Part shown: positions 20,224-27,434 of the stretch, piece by piece
Position numbering within the stretch: position 1 is the first letter of the stretch
Layout: each line of letters starts with the position of its first letter
From: Alphaproteobacteria bacterium
GTDB lineage: Bacteria > Pseudomonadota > Alphaproteobacteria > Elsterales > Elsteraceae
Assembly (NCBI GenBank): GCA_013298565.1
Contig: JAAFIC010000015.1
Location: 1 to 45,476, forward strand
Length of the DNA: 45,476 nucleotides
Direction: 5' to 3'
The notes under the pieces: model-generated
What the model saw: the letters and a program-made list of their open reading frames with translations, nothing else
Told to the model about the DNA's origin: nothing
Databases searched by the model: none
Program-made: the position numbers and the translations under genes

Positions 20224-21750
20224 GTGTTCATCTCGTTGCGGTCGAAGTTTGCATTGTTGTTTCTTGCCTTCATCGCCGTTCCGGCGTTGTTGGGGGTTAT
20301 TGGCATGGGCGCGCTCCGGGCGGTGAATGATCCGGCGCAAGAAGTGCGGGACGTGTGGCTGCCCAAGCTAAAGATCGTGGCGGCCCTCAACGATCACTTG
20401 AGCGATTTTCGCTTGGCGGAGGGGGATTATCTCGCTGCCACCGAGGAGGAGGAGCGGGCGGGCCATGCGGTCGTCATCGCGCGATTGGGCGGGGAGATTG
20501 CGACGACTATCGCCCAGTATCGCGCCGCGCAGCAGGCGGGAGCGGCCCCAACGGAAGCGCAAACCTTCAGCCAGTTCATCGCGGCCTGGGCCGACTACCG
20601 CGAAAGTGCGACGCGACTGATGGCGCAAGCGGCAACCTTGGATCGGCAGACCGTGCGGCAGGTGTATCGAGACGATACTCAACGGGCCTATGCCCGCGCC
20701 AACGATCTGCTGGACGCACTGACTGCCGCCGATATTGACGCGGCGGAGGCCAGCCGCGATCAGGCGAAGTCGGTGTATGATGATACGTCGGCGCGCTTTG
20801 TTGTTATCATCGTCGGGGTCGTCGGGCTTGCAGTGCTGGCGATGGCGATGGTTAATCGCACGATTTCCTCCCCCCTCATCCAACTCGTCGCCGTGCTCAC
20901 CCGTATTGCCCAGCGCGAGATTGATCTGCCCGTGCCCCATATCGCCCGGCGCGACGAGATTGGGGCGGTGGCCCGCGCGATCAATATTTTCCGCGAACAG
21001 GCGGCAGCCTTGGATAAAACCTTACAGCGCGAGCACGATTTGCTGAACCAGCAGCGCAACTTCATCACGATGGCCAGCCACGAAATCCGCACCCCCCTGA
21101 CCGGGATCGACGGACACGCGCGGCGGCTAGAGCGCCAGGCCGCTCAGATGACCCCCGCCGATATTACCGAGCGCGCCGGGCGGATTAGGGCCGCCGTTCG
21201 CAGGCTCACGGAAGTCGTGGAAAGCGTTACCCGCGCGGCCCAGTGGGAGCAGGAACGCACGAATGTGCGGCTAGAGCCGCACGCGCTTGCCGCCATGCTG
21301 CGCGATATTGTGGGCCGCCTGCGGGAGGAGCATCCGCATCGGGCGATTCTGCTGACCATGACCGCTTTTCCCCGCCCGGTACGGCTCGATCCGGCACTGT
21401 TCGATCAGGCGATCAGCAATCTGCTGGGGAATGCTTTGAAATACTCCGATCCTGCCAGCAGCGTTTCGGTTACGGCGTGCGTTGAGGGCGATTGGGCGCG
21501 GGTTACAGTGGAAGATCAGGGTATCGGCATTCCCGAAGCCGAGCGCAACCAGATCCGCACGCGCTTTTTCCGCGCTTCCAACGCGCGGGCTACGGTGGGC
21601 AGCGGGGTTGGTTTGTATATTGTGGATCACATCATGAGCATTCACAACGGTGAGATGATGATTGACAGTCGTTTGAATGAGGGTACGCGCGTTACGGTGC
21701 GCCTGCCACTCGCCCGCGCTTCGGCCGCTCAGGAAGGACTAAACGCATGA
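20224..21750 (+). CDS. Membrane sensor histidine kinase
   Basis: A 508-aa kinase. GTG start with GGAG eight bases upstream. The first membrane helix (ALLFLAFIAVPALLGVIGMG) is followed by a helical periplasmic domain of about 160 residues, a second helix (VVIIVGVVGLAVLAMAMVN), and a HAMP domain. The HisKA box is FITMASHEIRTPLTGIDGHA, with phospho-acceptor His286. A C-terminal ATPase domain shows the N box (NLLGNALKYSDP), G1 (EDQGIGIPEAER) and G2 (GSGVGLYIVDHIM). The periplasmic helical bundle resembles four-helix-bundle sensors of chemoreceptors. Its stop overlaps the start of the response regulator gene by four bases (ATGA), so the two form a cognate pair. The signal is not known. Confidence 0.93.
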   Translation: MFISLRSKFALLFLAFIAVPALLGVIGMGALRAVNDPAQEVRDVWLPKLKIVAALNDHLSDFRLAEGDYLAATEEEERAGHAVVIARLGGEIATTIAQYRAAQQAGAAPTEAQTFSQFIAAWADYRESATRLMAQAATLDRQTVRQVYRDDTQRAYARANDLLDALTAADIDAAEASRDQAKSVYDDTSARFVVIIVGVVGLAVLAMAMVNRTISSPLIQLVAVLTRIAQREIDLPVPHIARRDEIGAVARAINIFREQAAALDKTLQREHDLLNQQRNFITMASHEIRTPLTGIDGHARRLERQAAQMTPADITERAGRIRAAVRRLTEVVESVTRAAQWEQERTNVRLEPHALAAMLRDIVGRLREEHPHRAILLTMTAFPRPVRLDPALFDQAISNLLGNALKYSDPASSVSVTACVEGDWARVTVEDQGIGIPEAERNQIRTRFFRASNARATVGSGVGLYIVDHIMSIHNGEMMIDSRLNEGTRVTVRLPLARASAAQEGLNA

Positions 21751-22337
21751 CCTCTCGGTTGCTCTGCATTGAAGATGATCCCGATACCCGCGCGCTGCTG
21801 ATCGAAGAGTTGGAGGAGGGGGGCTATGACGTGCGGGCGGCGGTGGATGGGGCCGATGGGTTGACCGAGGCGTTGTCGTTTCGGCCCGATATTATCTTGT
21901 GCGATGTTATGTTGCCGCGCCTATCAGGCTTCGATCTCCTGGAAAAACTTGGAACACTGCTGCCCAGTGTGCCGCCGTTCATTTTTCTCACCGCTCTGAC
22001 CGACCGGGAAAATGTGCTACGTGGGCGGCGCTTAGGGGCCGATGATTACGTTATCAAACCCATTGATTTCGATATTCTGCTTGAAATCATCAAACGCCGC
22101 CTGGCGCGCGCGGTACCGGGGAACACCACCACGAGCCGTCATGAGCTAACGGAGCGTGAAATCGAAACCCTCACCTGGGTGGCACGCGGTAAATCCTCCT
22201 CCGAAATCGCCGATATGTTGGGCATTTCGGAGCGCACGGTCAATTTCCATGTGGAGAACGTGATGCGGAAGCTCGATGTGGTCAGCCGGGTGCAAGCGGC
22301 GGTGGTGGCGGTGCAGTCGGGCTGGATTCGGCCTTAA
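21747..22337 (+). CDS. Response regulator, REC domain plus LuxR-type HTH
   Basis: A 196-aa regulator. The receiver domain has the acidic pocket ([12 protein letters not shown]), phospho-acceptor Asp in [14 protein letters not shown], the switch Thr in FLTALTDR and Lys in YVIKPIDFD. The C-terminal 65 residues ([20 protein letters not shown], then [20 protein letters not shown]) form a GerE/LuxR helix-turn-helix. It is encoded together with the upstream kinase and should control unknown target genes on phosphorylation. The stop codon shares bases with the convergent chemoreceptor stop (a TTAA at 22334-22337 serves both). Confidence 0.93.
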
Positions 22338-24586: not shown

Positions 24587-26857
24587 TTAGGCCGAGGAGC
24601 CTTGCGCGAGTGAGTAGGGAATAGTAACCGGGCGGTACGCTGGGATTTGCGGCAATGCGGCAACGCCGAAATTCGGAAGCAAAGGACCGAGGCGGCTGAT
24701 CCCCGCCGTGGAGGGGGGCCCAAAACTCCCAGAGGTTTCACCGCGCAGTTGTTTGTTACGTTCTTGGCGGCGGGCTTCATCGAGTTTAGCGTCTTTACGC
24801 GACTGAAGGCCATTCGCCTCGGCCTTTGCGCTCAAGCGAACATCCTGAAGCGCCCCCGCAAGCTGACTTCCCGCTTGGGCTGCCGCTGTGAGCGAGGCCG
24901 AGCCGGTTCGCAGCAGGACAGCGGACTGCTGAGCGACGTTAAGCTCTTTTTCCAGGTTTGCAGCGGTTAGGCGTTTCTTACTGTTTTCGGCAATTGCGGC
25001 ATTGCCCGCGTAGAATCTATTGAAAATATCGGCGCGATCTGAGGACAGTAAGGCCGCTTGCTGGGCCGAGGCCGCGTCGGTCGCCGCTTGCCGCAGGGTT
25101 CGTGCGCTTTGCGCCAATCGCTCCGTCGTGATCCCCGGCACCAGCACCGCGAACCCTTGGGACACCAGCCCCGGCACTTCATACAACCCATCCGGCCCAT
25201 ACAGGAAGGTTCGTTGGATGCCCGATTTCAGTGCGGTCGCAACAACTTGGTCGCCGAAGACGGTTTGGTTGGTGAGCGGCAGATCCTGGGTTCCGGCAAT
25301 CGCGGTTGCGGTTGCGGTTGCGGTATCGACACGGTAGAGGCGGCTTCCGACAGACCCGGCTTCAGCGGCACGCAGGTAGATATACTTGCCCGCAGCGGTA
25401 AAATTGGACGCGAAGGTAAGGGCATCCCCATCGTCACTGAAAATTCGCTGAACATTCCCGGTAAGATCGGTCAGGTAAGGCGTATAGAAACCGTCAGCCG
25501 TGGTCGCGGCAACGGCAATTTTATCGCCCAGGGCGGCCACGCGGGTCGCGCCACCGAAAGGCGTATCCGTCGGGCCGGGAGTGAGGTCGGTCAAGCGGGT
25601 CGCGCTCGTGCCGTTACTATAATAGAGTTCCAGCCCGGCGCTGGGGTCTTGCGCCGTAAAGACAACGCCACCTTTGACCGCTTGAATAAACATGATTGGG
25701 CTAATCGGAAGACCATCTGCCGCGCCGGGGTTGATGTCGGCGACCAAGCGGACCCCCGTCTCATCCGCCGCATAAAGCTCGCGCCCGCCAGTATCGCCAA
25801 TCGCCGTAAAAAACACCTTGTTGCCCGATGCGGTGAGATATTCAGGGAAGGAAGACGCAGTCCCCGCTCGAACATTCGCGACGAGTTGCGTGCCGCCTAT
25901 AGAGCCATCGGTGCGGCGAATTTCAATCCCATCCGTCGCCGTCTGCGAGACAAAATAGAGATTGTCTTCCGCAACAGTAAAATACTTTGGCGCAGCACCT
26001 GTCGCGATTTGACCAAGATTCACAGTATTGGCGGCAAGGCCATCGCTTTTATAAAGATAATGATCGCTGCCATTGCTCATGGTAAAATAGAGAGAACCTT
26101 TGAACTCGGTCAAATTACTAATCGTGCTGCTCGCGGCCCCCGGCGTTAAATCTGAGAGCAGAAAAGTGCCATTTCTAGTTCCGTCTGAGCGCCAAAGCTC
26201 TGTGCCATTAGCCGCTGTGGTCGCACTATAATAGAGAAGGCCGTTTGCTGCCGCCCACTGCGGCTTCACGCCTGCCGTAAACTGCCCCGCCGGACCAACA
26301 TCGACATCACCAACGGCAACTTCGCTGCCTGGCGTTCCAAGTGTGCTCCACAATTCAAAACCGGTCGTGCCATTATTGGCGGCGAAGAAGACGCGGTCGA
26401 ACGGGCTAAGATTATCCGTAACATTCACCCCCGTTGGGGCTGTCAACGTATAATTTTGTTCGCGAAACGCGACTTGACCGCCTTGATAGAGTGAATTTCC
26501 GTAGAGCGGATCGACGGAATTATAGAGTTTCTGGGCTTCGACAACGGCCCCTTGGCGCTCGCGCACGCTCGAATCATCGCGAATGCTGCTTTGAATAAGG
26601 TTCGCGCCGGCCTGGTAGCGTAATCGCGCTTCACCAAAAGCATCCGCTTGAACGATGGCTTTTTCCCGCGCCTCTGCTGCCCCATTGGCGCGGGATTGAT
26701 GCGTTGCGATCTCGCGCGCCAGATCGGCTTTCGATTGCGTGAGCGCCCGGTTGACCGTGCTGCTGGTTTCAATCTGCCCCGTCCCAATCCGCGCTAAAGC
26801 CCGATCTAGCGTTTGCTGTGCCCGTTGTAAGGCTGTGACTGTCAGTGTCGAAACCAT
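24587..26857 (-). CDS. Repeat protein of about nine ELW/ELY-type units between two long helical arms
   Basis: A 756-aa protein of unknown function. ATG at 26857 (GGAGAGAGCA before it) is preferred over 26869. Residues 1-110 are helical and heptad-like, with a start (LTVTALQRAQQTLDRALARI then GTG) that loosely resembles flagellin's N-terminal helix. From about residue 150 to 560 there are nine units spaced 44-52 residues, marked by FELW, TELW, YLYK, IEIR, RELY, LELY, PYL, SRLY and FLY, the clearest carrying ELW..DGT..GT and LTPG. This is the pattern of ELWxxDGT repeats that build beta-propeller-like structures. Residues 570-705 are a second helical, Ala/Gln-rich arm, then a Pro-rich tail. No signal peptide or membrane helix is seen. 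Codon use and GC look like the neighbours. Confidence 0.85.
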   Translation of the reverse strand: MVSTLTVTALQRAQQTLDRALARIGTGQIETSSTVNRALTQSKADLAREIATHQSRANGAAEAREKAIVQADAFGEARLRYQAGANLIQSSIRDDSSVRERQGAVVEAQKLYNSVDPLYGNSLYQGGQVAFREQNYTLTAPTGVNVTDNLSPFDRVFFAANNGTTGFELWSTLGTPGSEVAVGDVDVGPAGQFTAGVKPQWAAANGLLYYSATTAANGTELWRSDGTRNGTFLLSDLTPGAASSTISNLTEFKGSLYFTMSNGSDHYLYKSDGLAANTVNLGQIATGAAPKYFTVAEDNLYFVSQTATDGIEIRRTDGSIGGTQLVANVRAGTASSFPEYLTASGNKVFFTAIGDTGGRELYAADETGVRLVADINPGAADGLPISPIMFIQAVKGGVVFTAQDPSAGLELYYSNGTSATRLTDLTPGPTDTPFGGATRVAALGDKIAVAATTADGFYTPYLTDLTGNVQRIFSDDGDALTFASNFTAAGKYIYLRAAEAGSVGSRLYRVDTATATATAIAGTQDLPLTNQTVFGDQVVATALKSGIQRTFLYGPDGLYEVPGLVSQGFAVLVPGITTERLAQSARTLRQAATDAASAQQAALLSSDRADIFNRFYAGNAAIAENSKKRLTAANLEKELNVAQQSAVLLRTGSASLTAAAQAGSQLAGALQDVRLSAKAEANGLQSRKDAKLDEARRQERNKQLRGETSGSFGPPSTAGISRLGPLLPNFGVAALPQIPAYRPVTIPYSLAQGSSA
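25302..25325. repeat. Hexanucleotide microsatellite inside the repeat protein gene
   Basis: GCGGTT is repeated three times and followed by GCGGTA. It encodes an alternating Thr-Ala run (TATATA) in the repeat protein. The 6-base unit keeps the reading frame, so copy-number changes would alter protein length without breaking the frame. Confidence 0.8.
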
Positions 26858-26885: not shown

Positions 26886-26915
26886 ATATTAAATTTTACG
26901 AGAATTCCTTATCAA
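26886..26915 (-). promoter_or_regulatory. Candidate promoter of the repeat protein gene
   Basis: On the minus strand TTGATA (26915-26910) and TAATAT (26891-26886) are separated by 18 bases. Transcription would start near 26879, giving a leader of about 22 bases that contains GGAGAG before the ATG at 26857. Spacing and position are good, and the surrounding AT-rich sequence stands out. Confidence 0.5.
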
Positions 26916-26959: not shown

Positions 26960-27412
26960 TTAGGATGAGCTTTCCTCATCCCCCGTCAGCCAGTCTGCCA
27001 GAGTTACGGCGGCGCGGGCCGGGTCTGCCGGGAGCGTTAGAAAATCCAGCGCGGCAGGGCGTTCGGCCAACAGCCCCTTACCAAGATCATCGGCTTGATC
27101 GGCTAAAGACAGGCTGCTGCGCGGCCCGCCGGTGAACACAATCGCGTCTATCTCCGTCCGCAGCGCCGCCATGGCCCGCCCGCCTGCGGCACCGCAATCG
27201 AGAATAAGATAGAGTGTTAGGGTTGGAAATTCGGCGCGAAGGTTTTTCCCCAGCATCGCCATCCAGCCAACGCCGATGCTATCGGCGGCATTCTCGGCAG
27301 AGAGCAGGGTGAGGCCATTGCCGCGTTTTTCCGCCAGCGTCGCCGCCTGCCGGGCTTGATCGAGATCATAGATCGTCACGATTGGCGGCCAAGTAAAACC
27401 GGGTGCGCTCAT
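26960..27412 (-). CDS. Hypothetical protein downstream of gap
   Basis: A 150-aa protein without a family I can name with certainty. The ATG at 27412 is chosen over 27433 for the GGAGG eight bases upstream. It is soluble, with alternating strands and helices: PIVTIYDLDQARQAATLAEK, GLTLLSAENAADSIGVGWMA, LTLYLILDCGAAGGRAMAAL, then DAIVFTGG. The order suggests a small Rossmann or TIM-barrel-like alpha/beta unit. It follows gap in the same direction after a terminator-like hairpin, so it may be part of the tkt-gap unit by read-through. Similar small proteins near gap and fba are something I recall from related bacteria, but no function is known to me. Confidence 0.7.
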   Translation of the reverse strand: MSAPGFTWPPIVTIYDLDQARQAATLAEKRGNGLTLLSAENAADSIGVGWMAMLGKNLRAEFPTLTLYLILDCGAAGGRAMAALRTEIDAIVFTGGPRSSLSLADQADDLGKGLLAERPAALDFLTLPADPARAAVTLADWLTGDEESSS

Positions 27413-27434
27413 TCTGCATCCCTCCAAAAGCAAT

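Follow-up and report, generated by a model that had tools for sequence, protein, structure and literature searches.

Organization of the locus

The window, a stretch of 45,476 nucleotides from an alphaproteobacterial assembly (GCA_013298565.1, contig JAAFIC010000015.1), carries on its minus strand an open reading frame of 756 residues, the parts of which are listed in Table 1. The frame and coordinates given in the initial annotation are correct, and the start, an ATG with GGAGAG on its 5' side, is backed by the orthologues. The source genome is a 3.0-Mb draft, and two congeners hold orthologues; the carriers of the gene are three species of a freshwater genus taken to be Elstera. The orthologue in one of them (G001) is 63% identical, and that in the other (G002) is 70-76% identical, the gene being broken there across two contigs with a 46-residue overlap. 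Among the sampled genomes, 385 from the class and 398 from the phylum, the whole protein is confined to Elstera, and within a set of nine genomes no other member of the order has an ELWxxDGT match. The C-terminal arm also gave matches in the phylum sample (E about 2e-4), several of which span aspartokinase genes and were set aside as chance. A contig search with the single protein as query gave no match, and the alignment as query recovered E. litoralis along with three ELWxxDGT proteins that are not related; two scans of viral contigs found no relatives.

Table 1. Coordinates of the propeller gene, its parts and related features (window positions unless a contig handle is given)
Feature	Position	Strand	Basis or remark
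ORF, 756 aa: flagellin-like N arm, predicted nine-bladed ELWxxDGT propeller, flagellin-like C arm, 85-aa tail	24587..26857	-	orthologues in two other Elstera genomes
N-terminal arm, residues 1-135	26453..26857	-	residues 8-126 align with flagellin N-terminal domain (hhalign)
Predicted nine-bladed ELWxxDGT propeller, residues 154-575	25133..26398	-	TIGR04534, AF2 models, PDB matches to nine-bladed propellers, repeat table
C-terminal helical arm, residues 578-704	24746..25126	-	AF2 secondary structure
Flagellin_C-like segment within C arm, residues 607-665	24863..25039	-	hhalign score 22.7, E 1.6e-3
C-terminal tail past flagellin end point, residues 672-756: charged helix, proline-containing linker, conserved AYRPV..P	24590..24844	-	alignments
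TAAAATTT block, upstream, conserved in all three orthologues	26891..26898	-	one occurrence in window, the chance expectation
orf157, conserved 150-157 aa gene after gap	26960..27433	-	also in six relatives that lack the propeller gene
FG-GAP flagellins of genome G126	L077:974-6488; L078:2503-4257	minus; plus	three in tandem with overlapping ends

The gene order in Elstera is tkt, gap, orf157, propeller gene, a glutathione S-transferase (GST) gene and a chemoreceptor gene, with the placement of the last two kept in all three species. The tkt-gap-orf157 order is kept in relatives where contigs permit, and gap-orf157 is present in 6 of 6 relatives; orf157 itself has no Pfam match and is conserved directly after gap throughout the family. 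Where the relatives are readable beyond orf157, an aldolase and a thiamine-phosphate-synthase-like gene come next instead, which indicates that the propeller gene is an Elstera-specific insertion lying outside the flagellar clusters. Two relatives (G006 and G008) carry, two genes past gap-orf157 and near the corresponding spot, a long secreted-looking ORF (L176:6760-9192, plus; L180:1-1736, minus). Near the chemoreceptor gene, the window also encodes a histidine kinase whose sensor domain is of the four-helix MCP type, together with a response regulator (20224-22337, plus), in the same order in E. litoralis and not found adjoining the chemoreceptor in G001. The upstream block was considered as a promoter motif common with the flagellin gene fla1 and rejected, being short, at chance frequency and nearer to the start codon than a sigma-28 site could be.

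Elsewhere, the source genome holds the flagellar export gene flhA, flgK, flgL and three flagellins, the third of which is diverged (L027:2286-3524, minus), with a Flagellin_N match, no Flagellin_C match and no counterpart seen in G001. E. litoralis shows part of the flagellar set, with three Flg_bbr_C proteins (FlgG/FlgF/FlgE-type), and neither flhA nor flagellin was found in its fragmented assembly of 1010 contigs; the idea of a non-flagellate species that keeps the gene was dropped on account of those three proteins and that fragmentation.

The predicted ELWxxDGT propeller

The middle of the protein matches the NCBIfam ELWxxDGT repeat model TIGR04534 at 192.6 bits (E 6e-58; cut-off 65). About nine repeats with a period of 44-52 residues had been proposed, and nine units of 45-52 residues are indeed found, the last one being shorter (40). 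AlphaFold2 models from six sequences place four-stranded blades across the whole middle, and the propeller modelled alone reaches a pLDDT of 69.6 and a pTM of 0.73. The top whole-domain PDB matches in VIA-align 2 are the eIF2A structures 8dys (Z 18.7 over 372 residues) and 3wj9 (Z 18.6), and eIF3b 4nox, the title of which names a nine-bladed beta-propeller, also matches the whole domain (Z 17.3), with DPP4-type propellers scoring lower (Z 15-16.4). The middle is thus predicted to form a nine-bladed ring, and a closed propeller, which the initial annotation named as a thing to look for, is probable from these full-span matches, in a predicted model with first and last blades of low confidence. 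No flagellin appears among the Foldseek and VIA matches listed; the propeller fills those rows, and they have no bearing on the arms.

Flagellin-like character of the helical arms

Helical arms at both ends are borne out by the AlphaFold2 models, with helices at residues 4-25, 33-91 and 98-113 in the N arm and 578-615, 620-632, 635-651 and 656-704 in the C arm, at a pLDDT of about 40-55 from alignments of two to three sequences. The C-terminal helical arm of 135 residues described earlier did not stand as such, since about 127 helical residues are followed there by some 50 residues of proline-containing tail that have no structure. The helix order in the two arms (4-25/33-91/98-113 and 578-615/620-651/656-704) follows what we take to be the flagellin order.

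The relationship to flagellin was assessed with profiles built from 25 flagellins (of the source genome, its relatives and the FG-GAP group) and 30 canonical proteobacterial ones, with the propeller-protein family left out. Against the N-terminal profile, residues 8-126 align over 112 columns with an hhalign score of 30.4 (E 2e-4, z about 7.6), while none of 300 decoys scored above 20.8, plain, heptad-preserving and block shuffles alike stayed below 21 and the reversed arm scored 15. The weak N-terminal likeness noted from the sequence is thereby strengthened to a profile-profile match along the whole N-terminal domain. The same annotation held that the C-terminus does not match; the C-terminal domain of flagellin does align with residues 607-665 (z about 5; Table 1), a match overlooked because 85 more residues come after it. 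Of 300 decoys from heptad-preserving or block shuffling, one, a heptad-preserving decoy, reached this score. Swapped profiles, with the N arm against the C-terminal profile and the C arm against the N-terminal one, gave decoy-level scores, as did two chemoreceptor (MCP) coiled-coil segments.

The match is a distant one. Pfam Flagellin_N and Flagellin_C (PF00669/PF00700) do not match the whole protein, nor, even at E 10, the separated arms of the three orthologues, and in a plain HMMER comparison one orthologue matches the flagellin profile weakly (E 0.018). With a profile of canonical flagellins only, the N arm remains at decoy level (16.1 vs 18.7), which indicates that the link runs via diverged alphaproteobacterial flagellins, the FG-GAP ones included. 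FlgL (HAP3) profiles made from the FlgL ends of the same bacterial family do no better than the decoys (scores of 8.6 and 11.8). FlgL-like proteins of about 1020 residues with an FlgE_D2-like domain in mid-protein were observed in two relatives (L032:2595-5672, minus; L033:88-3144, minus), the gene adjoining an FlgK-like gene in one of them. Outside the genus, the N arm has its nearest match within the sampled class in a true flagellin that bears a different propeller, of the FG-GAP type (47% over 32 residues), the aligned stretches being STIALRALQRSQNSMERALARLSSGQ against STLTVTALQRAQQTLDRALARIGTGQ.

The composition was also examined. Cysteine is absent from all three orthologues, as it is from the three flagellins of the source genome, and the probability of a Cys-free sequence is 8e-4 per full-length copy at a background of 0.94%. 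The absence of a signal peptide and of a transmembrane segment was upheld, the top 19-residue hydropathy being 1.4 and the N-terminus hydrophilic. RTX-like repeats are not apparent in the protein, and type I secretion was set aside.

Departures from ordinary flagellins

The ends do not form a complete D0. The N-terminus is about 8 residues shorter ahead of the R..TG motif, so that the INTN-type first residues of flagellin are absent, and 85 extra residues follow the D0-like segment at the C-terminus. In known filaments, the C-terminal D0 helix lines the export channel, and a tail at this position is therefore hard to fit in the filament shaft.

Conservation is inverted relative to the filament proteins of the genus, with the arms below the propeller. 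Between the source genome and G001, identity in the N arm, propeller and C arm is 57%, 73% and 48%, and the corresponding N-terminal, middle and C-terminal values are 81%, 45% and 80% for fla1, 75%, 59% and 77% for FlgL, and 83%, 74% and 83% for FlgK. Rough dN/dS estimates, made with synonymous sites near saturation, are about 0.07-0.08 for the propeller, the strongest purifying selection, 0.14-0.18 for the arms where estimable, and 0.24-0.40 for the tail, the fastest-evolving part. The FG-GAP flagellin paralogues are 63-81% identical at their ends and 34-41% in the propeller, which indicates that a propeller insert alone is not enough to invert the pattern. A filament or cap component, as first suggested, finds no support in that form, given the inverted conservation, a D0 cut at the N-terminus and extended at the C-terminus, and FlgL-type profiles that do not match.

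Proposed function and alternative explanations

The protein may be flagellin-derived, probably exported by the flagellum, with the propeller as its working part, a reading to which we give even chances. It is favored by arms that match their own profiles in register, the Cys-free composition, the presence of flagellar genes and the strongest purifying selection acting on the propeller; the lack of a Pfam flagellin match, the modest C-arm match, the low model confidence of both arms, a gene that does not adjoin flagellar genes and the partial flagellar set of E. litoralis count against descent from flagellin or export. Under such a mechanism, D0/D1-type ends would flank a propeller occupying the place of the variable outer domain of flagellins, and the flagellin-like N-terminus would lead the protein out via the flagellar export apparatus, the simplest export route, in our view, for a protein with such ends and no signal peptide. 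It would fold outside the cell, where the propeller may have as its ligand a polysaccharide or a protein from the freshwater biofilm or from its neighbours; route, location and ligand are what we infer for it. After a foreign propeller had been gained, selection would have moved from filament packing to the propeller, and the ends would have been remodelled by the N-terminal loss and C-terminal gain described above. With its ends so remodelled, the protein is probably not a bulk filament subunit; it would be rare, terminal or released, and selection would act on the propeller.

Three other explanations were weighed. A true minor flagellin, copolymerised in the filament and displaying propellers along it as an adhesive decoration in the manner of flagellins with inserted enzymatic domains, would explain why the ends are flagellin-like and why the insert sits at the boundary of D1 and the outer domain, and it has precedents in the canonical-ended FG-GAP propeller flagellins of another alphaproteobacterium and in the inserted domain types, Sialidase included, known in flagellins (PMC5595980). 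We regard it as rather unlikely, given arms less conserved than the insert, contrary to fla1, FlgL, FlgK and the FG-GAP flagellins, as well as the shortened N-terminus and a tail placed after a channel-lining helix. The arms could instead be unrelated to flagellin, namely coiled-coil oligomerisation arms that resemble it by convergence, in a propeller protein of another sort at the surface or in the cytoplasm. This would fit the lack of a Pfam match and the fact that Ala- and Gln-rich helices can score spuriously, 1 of 150 heptad-preserving decoys having reached the C-arm score; it is nonetheless improbable in view of the N-arm match, which spans 112 columns with a z of 7.6 when heptad-preserving decoys are the reference, of arms that each match their own and not the swapped profile, and of MCP coils that do not match.

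A flagellin-derived protein kept in the cytoplasm, for example as a chaperone sink or a regulator tied to the neighbouring chemoreceptor, would be in keeping with the missing signal peptide and with the order of GST and chemoreceptor genes kept in all three Elstera species, but housekeeping genes (gap, tkt and PRPP synthetase) are also among the neighbours, and the zero Cys content and the ELWxxDGT repeat, both typical of exported proteins, make retention highly improbable.

The preferred reading, a flagellum-exported protein of flagellin descent, can tentatively be taken further: with less than even odds, a flagellin gene may have turned into a dedicated propeller-delivery protein, in which the ends would serve as an export and mounting device freed from filament packing, the nine-bladed propeller would be the conserved core, and the long tail after D0 would anchor or cap instead of building a tube.

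Significance and relation to known systems

Domain-inserted flagellins are already known, but they were detected via intact flagellin ends. The propeller protein would escape surveys keyed to such ends because its own are too diverged for Pfam and the insert is apparently where selection now acts. Should the protein be exported and not polymerise, it would illustrate a path from a filament subunit to a stand-alone secreted protein and provide a natural test of which features of flagellin ends serve export and which serve packing.

With an ordinary flagellin (PF00669 and PF00700), the protein shares helical N- and C-terminal ends around a variable middle, a profile match of both ends, and the lack of Cys and of a signal peptide; it differs in lying under Pfam detection, in its missing first residues, in the 85-aa tail after the D0-like helix and in ends that evolve faster than the middle. 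Other ELWxxDGT repeat proteins (TIGR04534) share its repeat family and probable propeller fold, and those examined in alphaproteobacteria are longer; several have repeats of RTX-like or adhesin-like type, and flagellin-like ends occur in none of them. The nine-bladed propellers of eIF2A and eIF3b are the best structural matches over the entire propeller (Z 17-19) and have no sequence relation to it (about 10% identity), and a shared function is not implied.

A parallel in architecture is offered by a 1.9-Mb alphaproteobacterial genome (G126) with at least four flagellins that have an FG-GAP propeller as outer domain. In these, too, flagellin ends enclose a beta-propeller, with an insert of similar size, and they provide the best N-arm match outside the genus in the sampled class; they differ in their repeat family (FG-GAP_3), their canonical, conserved ends, their variable propeller and their tandem copies. 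More broadly, 61 domain types, Sialidase among them, have been found inserted in flagellins, and proteolytic flagellins have been demonstrated (Eckhard et al., PMC5595980). Flagellinolysin and other members of that group likewise carry a foreign domain in the central region, flagellinolysin having a metallopeptidase insert, canonical flagellin ends and demonstrated assembly in filaments (PMC5595980). Its HExxH metallopeptidase middle has no counterpart here, the entire 756-residue protein containing two His and its middle being a predicted propeller. The propeller protein would be a variant of such domain-inserted flagellins (PMC5595980), and to judge from the FG-GAP propeller flagellins, the insertion of a propeller into a flagellin has probably happened more than once.
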